Of a stretch of DNA of 64,000 nt, positions 12,814-36,025 are shown piece after piece (within the stretch, counting starts at the first letter, position 1; each line of letters starts with the position of its first letter). Source of the DNA: Olsenella timonensis (lineage in GTDB: Bacteria; Actinomycetota; Coriobacteriia; Coriobacteriales; Atopobiaceae); the NCBI RefSeq assembly GCF_900119915.1, contig NZ_LT635455.1, positions 496,001 to 560,000 of the forward strand, written 5' to 3'. Both the position numbers and the translations under genes were made by a program. Under the pieces are notes generated by a model. The model was not told the origin of the DNA. It made no database searches and saw only the letters and a program-made list of their open reading frames with translations.

Positions 12814-13140
12814 ATGTACGAGCCGTCACGTCAGCTGATGTCGTTCAACATCGCGGGGTTCCAGTTCTGGGACGGTGCGCTGGTGCTCGGGGAGCTCAGG
12901 GCGGGCACGCCGCTCGAGCTTGTCCCGGAGCCGGACAACCCGCACGATCCCGAGGTCGTTGCGCTGCGCTACCATGGGACTAAGCTCGGCTATGTTCCGT
13001 CGGACGAGAACGCCGTGCTCTCGGTGATGTGCTTCTACGGGCACGCCGCGGCGTTCGAGGTGCGCGTCCTTCAGGTGGACCCGGAGGCCGCTCCCTGGAA
13101 GCAGGTGCGCGTGGGCGTCTTCGTGAAGGACGCTCGCTGA
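12814..13140 (+). CDS. HIRAN-domain protein
   Basis: 108 residues, essentially one HIRAN domain: FNIAGFQFWDG, then LELVPEPDNPHDPEVVALRY and KLGYVPSDEN are the diagnostic blocks. HIRAN domains bind DNA ends or fork structures and are usually fused to helicases or nucleases; bacterial single-domain forms exist. ATG 12814 follows GAGAGGGGAGCC. It stands alone after the nuclease-like gene with 120 nt between them. Role in DNA repair or defence inferred. Confidence 0.85.
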   Translation: MYEPSRQLMSFNIAGFQFWDGALVLGELRAGTPLELVPEPDNPHDPEVVALRYHGTKLGYVPSDENAVLSVMCFYGHAAAFEVRVLQVDPEAAPWKQVRVGVFVKDAR

Positions 13141-13349
13141 CGCCTTCCAGGCGCGCCCAAAGAAGGTGAGAAGAGCGGCAGGACGCCCCATAGACGTTGT
13201 CCTTCTCGGCGTGGCTGCTTCCGAAGGACTGTGCAGTTTGGAGCAACTCTCGGCAACATGTGGACTAATCTAGATAAAGGAGACTTCGGCCAGCTTCTTT
13301 AGGGCCGCCCCGGGGTTTGCCACTTCGGACAAGTACGCAAGGAGGCGCC

Positions 13350-14105
13350 ATGCCGCTCGCTCGCCTGTCGGAGCGCATATCCTATCTCCCGCACGTCGAG
13401 GAGCTTGACCGTCCCGTGCTGGCGCTCGTGCGTGGGGATCGCCTCGCGCTTGCCGTCGACGCGGGCTACTCGTCGCGCCACGTCGCGGACTTCTACTGCG
13501 AGCTCGTCTCGGCGGGCCTCCCGCTGCCCGATCTCACCGCGCTCACGCACTGGCACTGGGACCACAGCTTTGGCATGAGCGCCGTCGCCGGCCTCACGGT
13601 CGCCCGGAAAGAGACGAACGAGCACCTGCTCGAGGTGCGTGGAATCCTCTCGGACCCGACCGACCCTCGCTGCGCGGACATCCGCTCGGCCCAAGGATTT
13701 GCCGAGGAGTTTCCGTCCGGGGAGGACCCCGTCGTCGTGACCGCCGACATAGAGTTTGAGGGCGAGCTCACGATCGACCTCGGCGGCGTGACCGCCCGGC
13801 TGATCGCCACGGACGCGCCCCACACCAACGACTCTGCGCTCGTCTACGTCCCCGAGGAGCGTACCCTCTTCGTGGGCGACTGCTTCTGCGAGGACTACGA
13901 CTCCGGCGACGACCCGTCCGTCTGCCACCTCGACCTAGTGCGGCTGCGCGCGCTTCTCTCCACGATAGAGGGCCTGGACCCGGCACCGGAGACCTTCGTC
14001 ATCGGCCACTGCCCGCCGGAGGGTCCGGACGAGTTCGTCGAATACCTTCACGAGCTGCTGCAGACGGCCTCGGGGGAGGGAGGAGCGCATGCCAACGCTA
14101 CGTGA
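13350..14105 (+). CDS. Metallo-beta-lactamase-fold hydrolase
   Basis: 251 residues; ATG 13350 follows AAGGAGGCGCC. The metal-binding motif THWHWDH (H67, H69, D71, H72) is intact, with later ligands likely in TDAPHTND, VGDCF and VIGHCPP. No signal peptide. Its last 17 bases overlap the start of the ADP-ribosylglycohydrolase, so the two are translated together. Substrate unknown; the partner suggests a phosphoester or nucleotide-derived substrate, but this is a guess. Confidence 0.85.
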   Translation: MPLARLSERISYLPHVEELDRPVLALVRGDRLALAVDAGYSSRHVADFYCELVSAGLPLPDLTALTHWHWDHSFGMSAVAGLTVARKETNEHLLEVRGILSDPTDPRCADIRSAQGFAEEFPSGEDPVVVTADIEFEGELTIDLGGVTARLIATDAPHTNDSALVYVPEERTLFVGDCFCEDYDSGDDPSVCHLDLVRLRALLSTIEGLDPAPETFVIGHCPPEGPDEFVEYLHELLQTASGEGGAHANAT

Positions 14106-17901: not shown

Positions 17902-18837
17902 ATGGAGAGCGACTTTGCGGCCTGGGTCGAGCGGGAGTTCCGTCACCCCGTGCCCGGCGAGTACCGGGACTTCCTCTTTCGGGACGCGGCATCCGCGCAT
18001 GTCGAGCCCGTCGCGCCCTCGCGGGCGTATCTCGTCACGGCCGACGGCGACGAGTACGAGGTCTCCGAGTGGTTTTCCGCCGAGCGCATACCCGACATCT
18101 ACTCATGCTGCCGCGCGGAGGGGCTGATAGCGGAGCAGCTGCTTCCGATCTTCGACAGCTGCGGCTGCGTCGCGGCGCTCGACTGCGATGAGCGCTCGAG
18201 CACCTACGGCAGCGTTCTTCTGCAGACTCCCGAGGGCCACTATGACGAGGCTCGTCAGGAGAACGTCTACGAGGAGCCGGTCCTTCTCGCTCGGAGCTTC
18301 TCAGACGTGCTGGCCGCCCTGGGAGAGACCCAGCAGGGCGAGGCCCCCGACCTCCTGCTCCTGGGTTCCGACCGGACGCTCGGCCCCTCGGACCTGGCGT
18401 CCTTTGAGCGCGAGCTGGACGTCGAGCTGCCGGCGGACTATCGCGAGTTTCTGCTGGCCCACAACGGCGGGACGCCGGCGCGGTTTCTCTGCACTCCCAC
18501 GTTCATGGAGGTCGACCCCGCTACAAGGGAGGGGCACCGCCAGTCGGTGCCCATCGACCACTTTCTCTCGCTGGGGGAGATCTCCGAGCTGCTCGTAGAC
18601 AACGAGGACGAGCCGACGTTCGGGCCGGGCCGCGTGCCTGTCGCGTGCGACCAGTGCGGCAACCTGATCCTGCTGGACGTTGCTTGCGGCTCGGGCGCAT
18701 CCATCGAGGGCGTTCAGGGCGTTCAATTTGCCAACCACGAGGTGCGCGGCGCGGACGGTCTCTTTGCCCTCTCGCCGCTCGCCTCGTCCTTCGTCGAGTT
18801 CGTTCGTTCCCTCGCCCCATATGGCGAGGACTCGTAA
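17902..18837 (+). CDS. Double SUKH (SMI1/KNR4) domain protein
   Basis: 311 residues; ATG 17902 follows GGGGGAGGGC. Two SUKH units appear in tandem: residues 1-140 (GEYRDFLFRDAASAHVEPV, then IFDSCGCVAALDCDE) and about 155-305 (SFERELDVELPADYREFLLA, HNGGTPA, VACDQCGNLILLDVACG). SUKH proteins are often immunity proteins against polymorphic or contact-dependent toxins. No toxin gene is adjacent. Cytoplasmic. Confidence 0.8.
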   Translation: MESDFAAWVEREFRHPVPGEYRDFLFRDAASAHVEPVAPSRAYLVTADGDEYEVSEWFSAERIPDIYSCCRAEGLIAEQLLPIFDSCGCVAALDCDERSSTYGSVLLQTPEGHYDEARQENVYEEPVLLARSFSDVLAALGETQQGEAPDLLLLGSDRTLGPSDLASFERELDVELPADYREFLLAHNGGTPARFLCTPTFMEVDPATREGHRQSVPIDHFLSLGEISELLVDNEDEPTFGPGRVPVACDQCGNLILLDVACGSGASIEGVQGVQFANHEVRGADGLFALSPLASSFVEFVRSLAPYGEDS

Positions 18838-22993: not shown

Positions 22994-23068
22994 GGTCAAA
23001 AGGGGACAGGCCCCTTTTGACCCATTTGGAACAGGAATAGGTCAAAAGGGGCCTGTCCCCTTTTGACC
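22994..23068. repeat. Inverted pair of GGTCAAAAGGGGAC palindromic units
   Basis: A 29-nt unit (22994-23022) and its exact reverse complement (23040-23068) are separated by 17 nt. Each unit is itself nearly palindromic. Related single units occur at 26316-26346 and 32482-32508. They can fold into large hairpins between ygeY and ygeW. Confidence 0.9.
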
Positions 23069-25390: not shown

Positions 25391-26353
25391 ATGAGACCCG
25401 ACCTCAGGGCATATCTTCTGGGTGACGACGGGCGCCGGGTCTTTGGGCCCGGTCCCGTCGACCTGCTGGAGCGCGTGGGCGAGCTGGGGAGTCTCCGCGC
25501 CGCCGCGATCGAGATGGGCATGGCCTACACCAAGGCGACGCGCCTCGTGCACGACGCCGAGCGCGCCTTCGGCTTTGCGCTCACCGAGCGGACCGTGGGC
25601 GGCTCCGGGGGAGGGGGCTCGCGGCTCACCGCGGAGGCGCGCGAGCTGATCGGGCGCTACCGGGCGTTCGAGCGCACGAGCCGCGCCGCGCTCTCCGCCG
25701 CCTACGAGACGTGCTTCTCGGGCTTTGGCGGCGTGGCGCGCCTGGGCTGCGTGGTCATGGCGTCCGGAGAGGGCGCGCGCTTTGGCGGCGCGCCGGGCGA
25801 GAAGCTCGTGGCGCCGCTGGCCGGCACGGCGGTGCTCGAGCGCACGCTCGCGGCGCTGCCGGGGGACCTGCTGGACGCCGTGGTGGTGACGCGCTGGGAC
25901 GCGGTGGAGGCCCTCTGCGAGCGGCTCGGCGTGCGCTGCGTGCGCGCGGAGGGGCCTCTCAAGAGCGATACCGTGCGCGCGGGCCTCGCGGCGCTGGGGC
26001 ACCGCGCGGGCTGCCTCTTCGTGACCGGCGACCAGCCGCTGCTCACCGAGGGGAGCGTGCGCGCCATGGTCGCCGCGCTCACGCGCGAGCCCACTGCCAT
26101 CGTGCGCCTGGCGTGGCACGGTCAGCCGGCAAATCCGGTGCTCTGGCCGGCGGACATGCTCGACGCGCTCGCGCGGATGGACAATGACACCGGAGGGCGC
26201 GCACTTCTCGCCGGCCATGCCGAGCTCGCGGACCGGGTGCGCCTGGTGGAGGCGGCCAGCGAGTGGGAACTCGCCGACGTGGACACGCGAGAAGACCTGG
26301 CGCGCCTGGAGGAGTGGGTCAAAAGGGGACAGTCCCCTTTTGACCCATCGTGA
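25391..26353 (+). CDS. ModE-like HTH fused to MobA/MocA-like nucleotidyltransferase
   Basis: 320 residues. Residues 1-95 match the N-terminal winged helix of ModE (FGPGPVDLLERVGELGSLRA, then AAIEMGMAYTKATRLV and LTERTVGG). Residues 115-300 are a MobA/MocA-like domain (ARLGCVVMASGEGARFGG, then LFVTGDQPLLT and GQPANPVLWP), expected to attach CMP or GMP to molybdopterin. The last residues VKRGQSPFDPS are encoded by a GTCAAAAGGGGAC palindrome overlapping the stop region. The fusion joins molybdate-type gene control with cofactor nucleotidylation. Likely regulator of the dyads at 31501 and 34109. Confidence 0.8.
   Translation: MRPDLRAYLLGDDGRRVFGPGPVDLLERVGELGSLRAAAIEMGMAYTKATRLVHDAERAFGFALTERTVGGSGGGGSRLTAEARELIGRYRAFERTSRAALSAAYETCFSGFGGVARLGCVVMASGEGARFGGAPGEKLVAPLAGTAVLERTLAALPGDLLDAVVVTRWDAVEALCERLGVRCVRAEGPLKSDTVRAGLAALGHRAGCLFVTGDQPLLTEGSVRAMVAALTREPTAIVRLAWHGQPANPVLWPADMLDALARMDNDTGGRALLAGHAELADRVRLVEAASEWELADVDTREDLARLEEWVKRGQSPFDPS
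26316..26346. repeat. GTCAAAAGGGGAC palindrome inside a gene end
   Basis: Single 31-nt palindromic unit of the family seen at 22994 and 32482. It lies within the last codons of the ModE/MocA fusion gene and before the hydantoinase. Confidence 0.85.
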
Positions 26354-32220: not shown

Positions 32221-32481
32221 GTGGGCGGCGCCCGGCGCGTGCGGGTCCCGTCGCTCGTGGTGACGTTTCCCACCACGGCGGCGGCGATGTCGTGCGAGGA
32301 GAGCTGCGCGCGCCGCGGCCTGCCCGGGCGGATGATTCCCGTGCCGGGCGAGGTCGCGGCGGGCTGCGGCCTGGCGTGGAAGGCGGCTCCCGAGGATCGC
32401 TCGGCGCTGGAGGGCGCGCTCGCAGCCGACGGCGTGCCCGTCGAGGGCTGGGCCGTGATCGAGCTGCTGGAGTTCCGATGA
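32221..32481 (+). CDS. DUF3343 putative Se/S carrier protein
   Basis: 86 residues with GTG start at 32221, three bases after yedF. Conserved TFPTTAAAMSCEESC (Cys25, Cys29), then PGRMIPVPGEVAAGCGLAWK (Cys49) marks DUF3343. Cysteines and position between YedF and a desulfurase fit a small sulfur or selenium carrier. Translationally coupled. Confidence 0.85.
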   Translation: MGGARRVRVPSLVVTFPTTAAAMSCEESCARRGLPGRMIPVPGEVAAGCGLAWKAAPEDRSALEGALAADGVPVEGWAVIELLEFR

Positions 32482-32508
32482 GTCAAAAGGGGACAGTCCC
32501 CTTTTGAC
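32482..32508. repeat. GTCAAAAGGGGAC palindrome
   Basis: A 27-nt unit directly after the DUF3343 stop and before the desulfurase; same family as 22994-23068 and 26316-26346. Confidence 0.85.
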
Positions 32509-32537
32509 CCATTCTTGTCGAGAGGGACGTGGGGCGG

Positions 32538-33686
32538 ATGATCTACCTGGACAACGCGGCGACCACGATGCGCAAGCCGAGGGAGGTCGTTGACGCCGTG
32601 TGCGAGGCGATGGGGTCGCTCGGCAACGCGGGGCGCGGTGCGTCTGCCGGCGCGCTCGACGCGGGGCGCGTGGTGCTGCGCTGCCGCGAGGCGATGGCGC
32701 GTCTGCTCGGATGCCCCCGGGCGGACCACGTGTGCTTTCTCGCCAACTCCACGGCCGCCCTCAACGCCGCGCTGTCCGGCCTGGTCGAGCCGGGGGACCG
32801 CGTGGTGACAACGGTGCTGGAGCACAACTCCGTGCTGCGGCCGCTCGCTCGCCTGGCGGACGAGCGCGGTGCCGAGGTGGCCTACGCCGGCTGCGACGAG
32901 CACGGGCTTCTCGACCTGGCGGACCTCGAGCGCCTGGTCACGCCGGGCACGAGGCTCGTTGCCGTGACGCACGGCTCCAACGTGACGGGCAACCTCGTGG
33001 ACGTGGCGCGCGTGGCGAGGATCGCGCACGCGGCGGGCGCGCTGTGCGTGGTGGACGCCTCCCAGACGGCGGGGGCCGTGCCGATCGACATGTCCGAGAT
33101 GGGCCTCGACGTGGTGTGCTTCACTGGGCACAAGGCCCTCATGGGACCGCAGGGAACGGGCGGCATGGCAGTTGCCGAGGGCGTCGACGTGCGTCCGTGG
33201 GCCGAGGGCGGCTCCGGCGTCCGCTCCTTCGAGCGTCGCCAGCCGAGCGAGTGGCCCACGCGCCTGGAGGCGGGGACGCTCAATGCCCACGGCCTGGCTG
33301 GACTCTTGGCGGGCGTTACCTACATCGAGAAAAACGGCGGGCCCGCGGCGGTGGGCGCGCGCGAGCACGCTATGGCGCGGCGTCTCTACGAGGGCGTGAG
33401 CGGCGTCCCCGGCGTGACGGTCTACGGTGCGTGGGACGTGGACGCGGAGCTCTGCGGCGGCATCGTTTCCCTCAACGTGGGCGACCTCGACTCCGGCGAG
33501 GTGGCCGACGCGCTCGCGCAGGGCTGGGGTATCGCCTGTCGCGCCGGGGCCCACTGCGCGCCGCTCATGCATCGGGCGCTCGGGACGGAGCGCCAGGGGA
33601 TCGTGCGCCTGAGCTGCGGCTGGTTCACCACGGCAGATGAGGTCGACGTTGCCGCGGCCGCCGTCCGCGAGATTGCGACGACCTGA
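32538..33686 (+). CDS. Cysteine desulfurase (class V aminotransferase)
   Basis: 382 residues from ATG 32538; GTG 32529 is an alternative. PLP-binding blocks DNAATT, GSNVTGN, VVDASQTAG and FTGHKALMGP (Schiff-base K199) are present. The catalytic cysteine lies in RAGAHCAPLM (C340) as in SufS/CsdA-like enzymes. Its neighbours YedF and DUF3343 suggest it supplies persulfide or selenium for the molybdenum hydroxylase cofactor rather than bulk Fe-S assembly. Active as a dimer in the cytoplasm. Confidence 0.88.
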   Translation: MIYLDNAATTMRKPREVVDAVCEAMGSLGNAGRGASAGALDAGRVVLRCREAMARLLGCPRADHVCFLANSTAALNAALSGLVEPGDRVVTTVLEHNSVLRPLARLADERGAEVAYAGCDEHGLLDLADLERLVTPGTRLVAVTHGSNVTGNLVDVARVARIAHAAGALCVVDASQTAGAVPIDMSEMGLDVVCFTGHKALMGPQGTGGMAVAEGVDVRPWAEGGSGVRSFERRQPSEWPTRLEAGTLNAHGLAGLLAGVTYIEKNGGPAAVGAREHAMARRLYEGVSGVPGVTVYGAWDVDAELCGGIVSLNVGDLDSGEVADALAQGWGIACRAGAHCAPLMHRALGTERQGIVRLSCGWFTTADEVDVAAAAVREIATT

Positions 33687-33688
33687 CT

Positions 33689-33763
33689 GGCCAACCAAAG
33701 GGGTCGGGTCCGTTTTCGCATAAATGATTTCTGCGAAAACGGACCCGACCCCTTTGGTTGGCC
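33689..33763. repeat. Perfect 32-nt inverted repeat after the desulfurase
   Basis: Arms 33689-33720 and 33732-33763, beginning GGCCAACCAAAGGGGTCGGG, are separated by 11 nt. It can end transcription of the yedF run. A third arm-like copy lies at 33981-34012. Confidence 0.9.
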
Positions 33764-33915
33764 TAGGGTATGCGCACCTGCTTCCGAGGGTATGTGCATC
33801 GTTCACTTGTTGATGTATTTCTCAGCAACTCGTCTACCTGCGAAAACGCAAGTTACGCCTGCAGATAATGATTGCAACTGTGCACATACCCTCTGTGGAA
33901 GTGCACATACCCTAC
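33764..33915. repeat. Imperfect inverted repeat with GGGTATGTGCAC units
   Basis: Left arm about 33764-33801, right arm about 33879-33915, each containing two TAGGGTATG or GAGGGTATGTGCA units, around a 77-nt centre. With the flanking repeats it fills the 464-nt gap 33687-34150, which holds no gene. Confidence 0.65.
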
Positions 33916-33952
33916 GTGGCGGATATGACGGGGCCCTCCTGCGCGGCAGCCC

Positions 33953-34032
33953 GCGCGAGGAATGGCGCTGAGAGCATTTCTGCTAAAACGGACCCGACCC
34001 CTTTGGTTGGCCGTTTGCGCGAGGAATGGCGC
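33953..34032. repeat. Repeat copy flanked by 16-nt direct repeats
   Basis: GCGCGAGGAATGGCGC occurs at 33953-33968 and 34017-34032. Between them is a 48-nt stretch containing a copy of the CGGACCCGACCCCTTTGGTT arm. Confidence 0.75.
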
Positions 34033-34108
34033 CGCTCAGGTGGGTCTCCTAGGGGGCAAACAGATTGTGAGCTAGACTAACTAGTTGGAATTACTCATGA
34101 GACGCGGA

Positions 34109-34134
34109 GCGTTATACATTCAAAAATATAACGC
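34109..34134. promoter_or_regulatory. ModE-like dyad before the yqeB-mod operon
   Basis: Perfect inverted repeat GCGTTATA-N10-TATAACGC, 17 nt before the start of the YqeB-XdhC gene. The TATAACG half-site matches the half-site of E. coli ModE boxes. Position fits repression by molybdate-bound regulator. Confidence 0.7.
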
Positions 34135-34150: not shown

Positions 34151-36025
34151 ATGCTGGTCGTGATTCGCGGAGCGGGGGACATCGCCTCGGGCATCGCGCT
34201 GCGCCTCTTCCGCGCGGGGATGCGGGTCGTGATGTGCGACCTGCCCGTGCCAACCTCCATCCGGCGGACGGTGTGCTTCTCGGAGGCCATCCACCTGGGC
34301 GAGACGAGCGTCGAGGGGGTGCGCGGCGTGCTCTGTGCCACCCCGGCGGCGGCGCGTGCGGCCGCGGAGGCCGGCGACGTCGCCGTGCTCGCGGATCCCG
34401 AGGCCGCCTGCGCGCGCGAGCTCTCCCCGGACGCCCTCGTCGACGCGATCCTCGCCAAGCGCAACCTGGGCACCACGCGCGACATGGCGCCCGTGGTGGT
34501 CGGCGTGGGGCCCGGCTTCACCGCCCCCGTGGACTGCGACGCGGCGGTGGAGACGATGCGCGGGCACTACCTGGGGCGCGTCTACTACGAGGGGTCGCCC
34601 CTGCCCAACACCGCGGTGCCGGGGCTCATCGGCGGCTACGCAGGGGAGCGCGTGATGCGCGCGCCCGCGGACGGAGTCTTCGAGCCGTGCGTGGAGATAG
34701 GCGCCGAGGTGCGCGCCGGGGACGTCTGCGCCACGGTGGCGGGCGAGCCAATGTGCGCGACCATAGACGGCGTGGTGCGGGGGCTCCTCCAGGCCGGCGT
34801 GCGCGTGACGGCGGGCATGAAGTCCGGCGACGTGGACCCGCGCTGCCGCCCTGAGTACATCCGCACCGTCTCCGACAAGGCGTCGGCCGTGGGCGGCGGC
34901 GTGCTCGAGGCGATTCTCGCGATCTTCTCCCGGCGTGTCGGCGGGCCGCAGATGGACGATTTGAGCGAGAAGAACGTCCATCCGCGGCCCGCCAACGGGT
35001 CTTTGGCTGGTGGGCACCCGGTCAACGGGTCCCTGTCGGACGGGGGCTTCGTCTCCGCGCTCGCAGCAGAGCTCGCCGCTGGGCGCAGCGTGGGGCTGGC
35101 GACCCTGCTCGCCACCCGCGGGTCCATGCCGCGCCACGAGGGGGCCCGGATGGCGGTCCTCGCAAGCAGCGCCCAGGTGGGGACCATCGGCGGCGGCGCG
35201 ATCGAGCGGCTCGCGACCGAGCGGGCGGACGCGGCGCGTCGCGGCGGCGCGGCGGGCATCGAGTGGGTCACGAGCGGTGCGAGTGACATGGCCTGCGGGG
35301 GAGACGCCCTGCTCGCGGTGCGCGCGCTCACGGCACGCGACCTGCCCGTCCTTCTCGCCCTGCAAGACGCGCTCGAGCGGGACGAGCCCGTGACCGTGGA
35401 GGAGCGCTGGGCCGACGCCTCCGCTCCCGAGCTGCTGCTCGCGCCCGCCGAGCGAGCCCCGGGACCGACGTGGGACGCCGTCGGCGCGACCTATCGCGAG
35501 CCCGTCTGCGCCCCGAGCCGCCTGCACGTCTTTGGCGCCGGGCACGTGGGTGCCGCGCTCGTGGGCCTCGCGGCGCAGGTGGGCTTTGGGGTGCGGGTCT
35601 ACGACGACCGTCCGGACCTCGCGAGCGGCGCGAGCCTGTCCGCCGCGGCATCCGTGGCCTGCGGGCCGTTTGACGAGCTGGCAGCGGCAGCACAGATCGG
35701 CCCCCGCGACTCCGTCGTCGTGCTCACGCACGGGCACGCGCACGACGAGGCCGTTCTTCTCGCCGTGCTGATGCGTGACGTGCAGCCCGCGTACGTGGGC
35801 TGCATCGGAAGCCGCCGCAAGGCGGCCCTCACGCGCGAGCGTCTCGCCGCGGCGGGCGTGCCGCGCGAGCGCGCAGACGCCGTCCACCTGCCGATCGGCG
35901 AGGCCATCGGCGCCGTCACACCATCCGAGATCGCCATCTCCATCGTGGCGCAGCTCGTCCGCTGTCGCGCGGAGCGGCGCGAGGGCAAGGACCGGGACGC
36001 GAAACGGGGAAAGGAGACGACATGA
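34151..36025 (+). CDS. YqeB-type selenium-dependent Mo hydroxylase protein fused to XdhC
   Basis: 624 residues from ATG 34151. Residues 1-265 match the EF2563/YqeB family (VVIRGAGDIASGIALRLFRA, NLGTTRDMAPVVVGVGPGFT). After a repetitive linker (about 275-295, NGSLAGG and NGSLSDGG), residues 300-620 are XdhC/CoxI-like with RGSMPRHEGARM, GTIGGGAIE and the Rossmann stretch HVFGAGHVGAALVG (about 459). XdhC proteins bind and insert sulfurated or selenated molybdenum cofactor. These two are normally separate genes. Overlaps modA by ATGA; heads the Mo operon. Confidence 0.88.
   Translation: MLVVIRGAGDIASGIALRLFRAGMRVVMCDLPVPTSIRRTVCFSEAIHLGETSVEGVRGVLCATPAAARAAAEAGDVAVLADPEAACARELSPDALVDAILAKRNLGTTRDMAPVVVGVGPGFTAPVDCDAAVETMRGHYLGRVYYEGSPLPNTAVPGLIGGYAGERVMRAPADGVFEPCVEIGAEVRAGDVCATVAGEPMCATIDGVVRGLLQAGVRVTAGMKSGDVDPRCRPEYIRTVSDKASAVGGGVLEAILAIFSRRVGGPQMDDLSEKNVHPRPANGSLAGGHPVNGSLSDGGFVSALAAELAAGRSVGLATLLATRGSMPRHEGARMAVLASSAQVGTIGGGAIERLATERADAARRGGAAGIEWVTSGASDMACGGDALLAVRALTARDLPVLLALQDALERDEPVTVEERWADASAPELLLAPAERAPGPTWDAVGATYREPVCAPSRLHVFGAGHVGAALVGLAAQVGFGVRVYDDRPDLASGASLSAAASVACGPFDELAAAAQIGPRDSVVVLTHGHAHDEAVLLAVLMRDVQPAYVGCIGSRRKAALTRERLAAAGVPRERADAVHLPIGEAIGAVTPSEIAISIVAQLVRCRAERREGKDRDAKRGKETT

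Follow-up and report, generated by a model that had tools for sequence, protein, structure and literature searches.

Repeats between a desulfurase-like gene and a mod-like operon

The window analysed here, a stretch of 64 kb, belongs to Olsenella timonensis, whose own genome (2.18 Mb, one contig) was pattern-searched. The gap between a putative cysteine desulfurase-like gene and the first gene of a putative mod-like operon, referred to as the csd/mod gap, holds the features collected in Table 1. The first-pass annotation had described a perfect 32-nt inverted repeat, a GGGTATGTGCAC dyad and a third arm lying between two copies of GCGCGAGGAATGGCGC, and each of these is present where it had been placed. 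They do not form one nested structure but fall into two repeat families that are unrelated, namely, one that comprises the hairpin and the third arm, referred to as TIR, and a second one to which the GGGTATGTGCAC dyad belongs, referred to as element b. The two families abut at 33763/33764, that is, at 529.8 kb of the genome.

Table 1. Genes and repeats in and around the csd/mod gap, in positions of the 64-kb window.
Feature	Position	Strand	Remarks
Upstream gene, putative cysteine desulfurase-like	32529..33686	+	stop codon 33684-33686
TIR dimer (REPIN-like hairpin)	33689..33763	.	arms 33689-33725 and 33727-33763
Element b, hairpin of ~150 bp	33764..33914	+	conserved asymmetric core between arms
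Element b, outer arms	33764-33777/33901-33914		inner arms 33786-33803/33876-33893 or, more narrowly, 33787-33799/33880-33892
16-nt direct repeat GCGCGAGGAATGGCGC, left copy	33953..33968	+	exact
Single TIR copy (third arm)	33976..34012	+	36/37 identical to right arm of dimer
16-nt direct repeat GCGCGAGGAATGGCGC, right copy	34017..34032	+	exact; within stretch alignable to relatives
Downstream gene, first of putative mod-like operon	34151..36025	+	ATG at 34151

All 31 genomes of the genus gave matches to a 1.1-kb query. Of the 30 relatives, 26 have both flanks on one locus, and in these the gap was read (G005, G010, G016 and G023 were left out). The TIR core, GGACCCGACCCCTTTGG, occurs in none of these 26 gaps, which agrees with the earlier suggestion that repeats of a mobile type had been caught at this place. 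By a crude score, inverted repeats scoring at least 12 are present in 17 of the gaps and missing from nine. Within these nine, L074 and L075 look empty by eye; L051 and L054 have no more than a short single end, resembling that of L052 and L063; L049 and L066 have a short GGGACTGTCCC palindrome, and L058 and L062 shorter palindromes; and L073 carries an imperfect element b. Variants of element b were recognized by eye in eight relatives' gaps, five of which also match the model of this element described below (R1). The sequence adjoining the downstream gene is conserved in 14 aligned relatives (the two closest, L049 and L050, were not captured), and therefore insertions seem to be tolerated only upstream of this stretch. 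At five other TIR sites of the genome, each aligned to three or four relatives, the relatives' gaps were empty or differently filled.

The TIR family and its transposase

The arms of the hairpin, 37 nt long and 97% complementary, are separated by 1 nt, and their outer 32 nt, which form its base, pair without mismatch; the predicted RNA fold has -68.7 kcal/mol, with z -14.9. The third arm shares 97% identity with the right arm of the hairpin. A TIR 23-mer was found three times against an expectation of 0.00, far over chance, and the exact core is present in 23 copies in the own genome, where the reversed pattern, used as a control, gave none. The other 30 genomes of the genus hold four copies at no more than one mismatch, two of them exact, and viral contigs hold none. 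By position, the 23 copies form seven inverted pairs, with a start-to-start spacing of 46-59 nt, seven singles, one of which is a third copy adjoining the pair at 1162 kb, and two copies that flank a transposase gene. The hairpin of the window is a TIR dimer, and the third arm is a single TIR copy. By the look of their sequence, the dimers resemble two transposon ends joined, as in the dimer at 1852 kb, which reads as the two 42-nt arms of the transposase gene put together. Rfam microRNA matches at the hairpin, all below gathering scores, were dismissed as chance matches to a perfect hairpin.

The transposase gene, at 1175 kb, is one of two Y1_Tnp matches in the own genome, and sits between 42-nt inverted arms of the window's TIR sequence, with a span of 988 nt. 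Its product of 250 aa contains the HUH motif NHVHLL and the tyrosine motif YIHDNP, and scores 39.4 bits against Pfam Y1_Tnp (cut-off 23) and 44.9 bits against NCBIfam NF047646 REP_Tyr_transpos, under the cut-off of 80. A separate C-terminal HTH gave no Pfam match in the two own Y1_Tnp proteins scanned, and an RQIERLTG-like C-terminal tail was seen by eye in 23 of 31 Y1_Tnp loci, those with a readable tail. Across the genus, 28 of the 31 genomes contain Y1_Tnp matches, 76 in total, and 31 of these loci were fetched; inverted arms scoring at least 23 flank 26 of them, and the other five lack such arms. The arms comprise many different sequences, with several loci having a common arm type, and this variety of ends provides material for studies of co-evolution between TIRYTs and their ends.

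A relative of the transposase, 57% identical, was found in an Atopobiaceae MAG (L215), downstream of what is apparently the same upstream gene, and its TIRs are quite unlike those of the own genome; this relative also points to Atopobiaceae as the source of the window. To the eye, the TIR type of this locus (L215, 1703-2917) is similar to the hairpins occupying the csd/mod gap of L052 and L063. Divergent Y1 genes lie in G011:C18 and G030:C49 at the place matching the own 1175 kb site, the one in G030 with a different TIR. At a further site, at 431 kb (L155 near 18650-18690; L168, L169), G030 and G025 have the inner portion of the TIR, ATCAAAAGTTTCTG, in common but a different outer portion, as though the two halves could be swapped. 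Palindromes like GGGGAC(A/T)GTCCC, found in the window at about 32481-32512, 26323-26339 and 23003-23059, resemble the ends of other Y1_Tnp families of the genus.

The transposase and the TIR copies together have the features of a TIRYT/TIRtron, kin of RAYT/REPIN, and the TIR part of the locus is a further, clear example, with dimers and singles, of a known kind of system. As described by Di Nocera et al. (2013; PMC3733652), TIRYTs likewise combine an HUH-tyrosine protein whose C-terminal part is long, long inverted repeats around the gene, and dispersed single and dimer TIR copies. The own TIR motif, GGGGTCGG, fits the GGGGWSAS of that paper at seven of eight positions, one letter off, a motif said there to be common to some TIRs only; the motif of the other Y1 gene of the own genome (L001), GGGGACAG, fits it completely. 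In PMC6006769, subclass 2.1 is proposed to correspond to TIRYTs, and REP-like sequences were not found in the vicinity of its genes; our system likely belongs to this subclass. With RAYT/REPIN, as presented in PMC3116915, the system shares a hairpin of two inverted repeats, a cognate transposase gene, and singles that are taken as remnants. Unlike REPINs, its arms, as read, lack the GTAG/GTGG foot, it has only 23 copies, and its transposase stays under the NCBIfam REP cut-off given above. Olsenella, Atopobium, Eggerthella, Cryptobacterium and Actinobacteria are absent from the main text of PMC3733652, as are Actinobacteria, Coriobacter and Olsenella from that of PMC6006769, and a literature search, which covered sources outside subscription journals, gave no paper on such repeats in these bacteria.

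We consider it likely, although short of certain, that both the hairpin and the third arm represent non-autonomous TIR copies of the TIRYT encoded elsewhere on the chromosome, an HUH/tyrosine, IS200-like transposase related to RAYTs, and that the dyad is a genus-specific element b. Dimers would be transposon units that have lost their interior and were copied, by way of single-stranded DNA, to intergenic sites permissive for insertion. The third arm may be a partial TIR copy, perhaps from the dimer ~210 nt away, that was captured during repair of a staggered break, an event that would also have produced the 16-nt duplication. Lying between the hairpin and the third arm, the dyad is an element b copy and probably also a miniature mobile repeat. 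Points that weigh against this reading are the one-letter departure of the TIR from GGGGWSAS, the transposase score under the NCBIfam REP cut-off, the absence of a Pfam match to a separate C-terminal HTH, and the five Y1_Tnp loci that lack flanking arms of this score.

An alternative in terms of host structure, in which the hairpin acts as a terminator or mRNA stabilizer and the 16-nt repeat arose by replication slippage or template switching beside it, could appeal to the very stable fold directly 3' of the desulfurase-like stop codon, and to the tandem duplications that edge two other TIR loci, namely, 31 nt, for the most part TIR, at 1162 kb and 22 nt of flanking sequence at 1852 kb. We regard it as improbable, given that the sequence of the hairpin is dispersed in the genome and also flanks a transposase gene, that the hairpin is missing here from all 26 relatives read, and that no T run follows it on the 3' side. 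The hairpin may still have a secondary effect on the mRNA.

The 16-nt direct repeat

Within the 64-kb window, no exact direct repeat other than GCGCGAGGAATGGCGC reaches 16 nt at a start spacing of 16-120. The 23 TIR copies of the own genome fall into 15 places, and with the TIR core masked, flank repeats of at least 16 nt are present at three of them (at four with the core unmasked). For comparison, when 2000 random length-matched segments of the own genome were drawn without matching for intergenic position, 1.3% of them contained repeats of this length with at most one mismatch, which gives a binomial chance of at least three of ~0.0009. First, the repeat at 413.8 kb has 21 nt with one mismatch. 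Second, that of the window has 16 nt if exact, or 18 with one mismatch. Third, the repeat at 1852 kb is a tandem of 22 nt. The first two bracket a single TIR, and the third adjoins a dimer. Masked flank repeats of this length are absent from all 61 TIR-like loci of G012 and G017; among 1500 random segments, their share is 2.0%.

The first-pass annotation had taken the third arm for a short element with a target duplication, and suggested looking for empty sites with a single 16-mer. Two copies of GCGCGAGGAATGGCGC were found in none of 25 relatives' gaps (L049, not captured, was read by eye instead) and the TIR in none of 26, and therefore it is not the case that all carry both; a single GCGCGAGGAATGGCGC was not recognizable in these relatives either, which are too diverged, the best match having at least four mismatches. 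The right copy lies within the stretch alignable to relatives and therefore is probably the older one, and an ancestor with a single copy of the repeat may be supposed from these weakly alignable relatives only.

The supposed short element turns out to be a single copy of the same end-repeat that forms the hairpin. That it is instead a distinct short transposon making a 16-bp target-site duplication appears very improbable to us, despite three observations that would fit: it is bracketed by exact repeats of a sort not found elsewhere in the window, the single TIR at 413.8 kb is likewise bracketed, and the second copy of the 16-mer is missing in relatives. The two bracketing repeats are unequal in length, the sequence between them amounts to a single TIR arm and has no paired ends, and 12 of the 15 own TIR places, as well as all 61 loci of the two other species, are devoid of masked flank repeats of at least 16 nt. 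With flank repeats measuring 16, 21 and 22 nt, the last a tandem, a target duplication of fixed length does not hold, and duplication as a general companion of TIR insertion was rejected on the same counts. Break repair or slippage, with the 16-nt repeat as its occasional by-product, seems likelier than a fixed target duplication. For the third arm, an origin in break repair is suggested by the two bracketed singles, at 413.8 kb and in the window, and finds no support in the 61 loci of the two relatives.

Element b and other motifs of the window

Element b is a repeat family of the whole genus for which we found no name. The copy in the window is a double nested inverted repeat, whose fold has z -6.4 on the + strand and -7.7 on the - strand, and its 13-nt arm was found four times at no more than two mismatches against 0.51 expected, far over chance. 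In the own genome, GTGCACATACCCT is present in 18 copies at no more than one mismatch, which for the most part flank an interior of ~80 nt, one or two per side. The element is located at 450.2, 529.8, 1299.4 and 1571.9 kb, and another copy lies at 310.1 kb. The arms also occur in tandem, as in AGGGTATGTGCAC.

An alignment (A2) of 28 copies from 12 genomes was assembled, with own1299 and own450 added by hand; L053, L060 and L069 were dropped, and own827, L137, L144, L050 and L068 were not captured. Its 20-pair stem covaries, with 14 of the pairs changing on both sides and 55 double-change cells against 26.6 in shuffles, and the unpaired core is conserved, reading like TTGATGTTCTTCTCGCCAA..CGTCTACCTGCG and including CTACCTGCG. 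The model of the core built on A2, R1, matches the window at 33787-33892 with 93.3 bits, this copy being part of the training set. It also matches all 31 genomes of the genus, 19 of which were not used in building it, with 2-78 matches per genome, double hits on both strands included. Under stricter filters, R1 matched 21 genomes in a sample of 149 from the order, namely, ten of the genus and 11 others, where the matches are weak (best E 1e-6). Rfam gave only sub-threshold microRNA and JUMPstart matches for the window stretch and ten element b loci. This distribution, together with the lack of an Rfam match and of any enzyme found, makes element b potentially of more interest than the TIRs.

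The spelling of the arms tends to go by genome, although G004 has two. Orthologous copies in G017 and G012 have the same arms with different interiors, as in L305 and L333, which have little of the interior in common. These comparisons are consistent with a mobile hairpin, specific to the genus and so far unnamed, whose mobilizer would recognize helically spaced arms around a conserved core, keep the arms and exchange the interior, a reading that we offer only tentatively. Bacterial MITEs (RUP, NEMIS, ERIC and others, as named in PMC3733652) share with element b a length of 100-150 bp, inverted ends, a multi-copy state and, where read, an intergenic position. Unlike them, element b has 13-nt arms repeated one to four times per side with a period of ~20-22 nt, a conserved asymmetric core, no transposase found, and no clear target duplication.

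Covariation of the stem and a conserved unpaired core with CTACCTGCG could also be expected of a structured regulatory or trans-acting RNA that is not mobile DNA, but a DNA hairpin would yield equal covariation. Such an RNA seems unlikely to us, in view of the variation from 2 to 78 matches between species of one genus, the presence or absence of the element at one locus among relatives, the repetition of its arms, also in tandem arrays, and the tendency of arm spelling to go by genome.

As for the means by which element b, taken as a mobile hairpin, would move, Y1 transposases were rejected as its mobilizer, Y1 and element b counts being discordant by eye and none of the best Y1 flanking arms being b-like. 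No gene was found between element b arms in 1.2 Mb of G012 and G017, using the exact arm pattern, and no autonomous element among the ORFs near 1299-1302 kb of the own genome. The filled/empty pair L319 and L338 gave no clean junction, nor did any other empty-site pair for this element. Seven exact 18-mers of the core in viral contigs, none with an R1 match, were set aside as probably due to chance. In L319, at about 13060-13370, arms like those of element b follow one another in tandem, with a period of ~21-22 nt.

Two further motifs of the window were recorded. CTTCTCGCC has 25 sites, ~17-fold over-represented with respect to a dinucleotide model; 20 of the 25 lie inside crude gene calls covering 85% of the window and therefore it has no clear preference for gaps, and a role as an intergenic uptake motif was rejected. 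Ahead of the downstream gene, a palindrome, GCGTTATACATTCAAAAATATAACGC (34109-34134), and a promoter-like block (34055-34092) are largely conserved in the 14 aligned relatives. By way of a guess, this may be a ModE-like operator.
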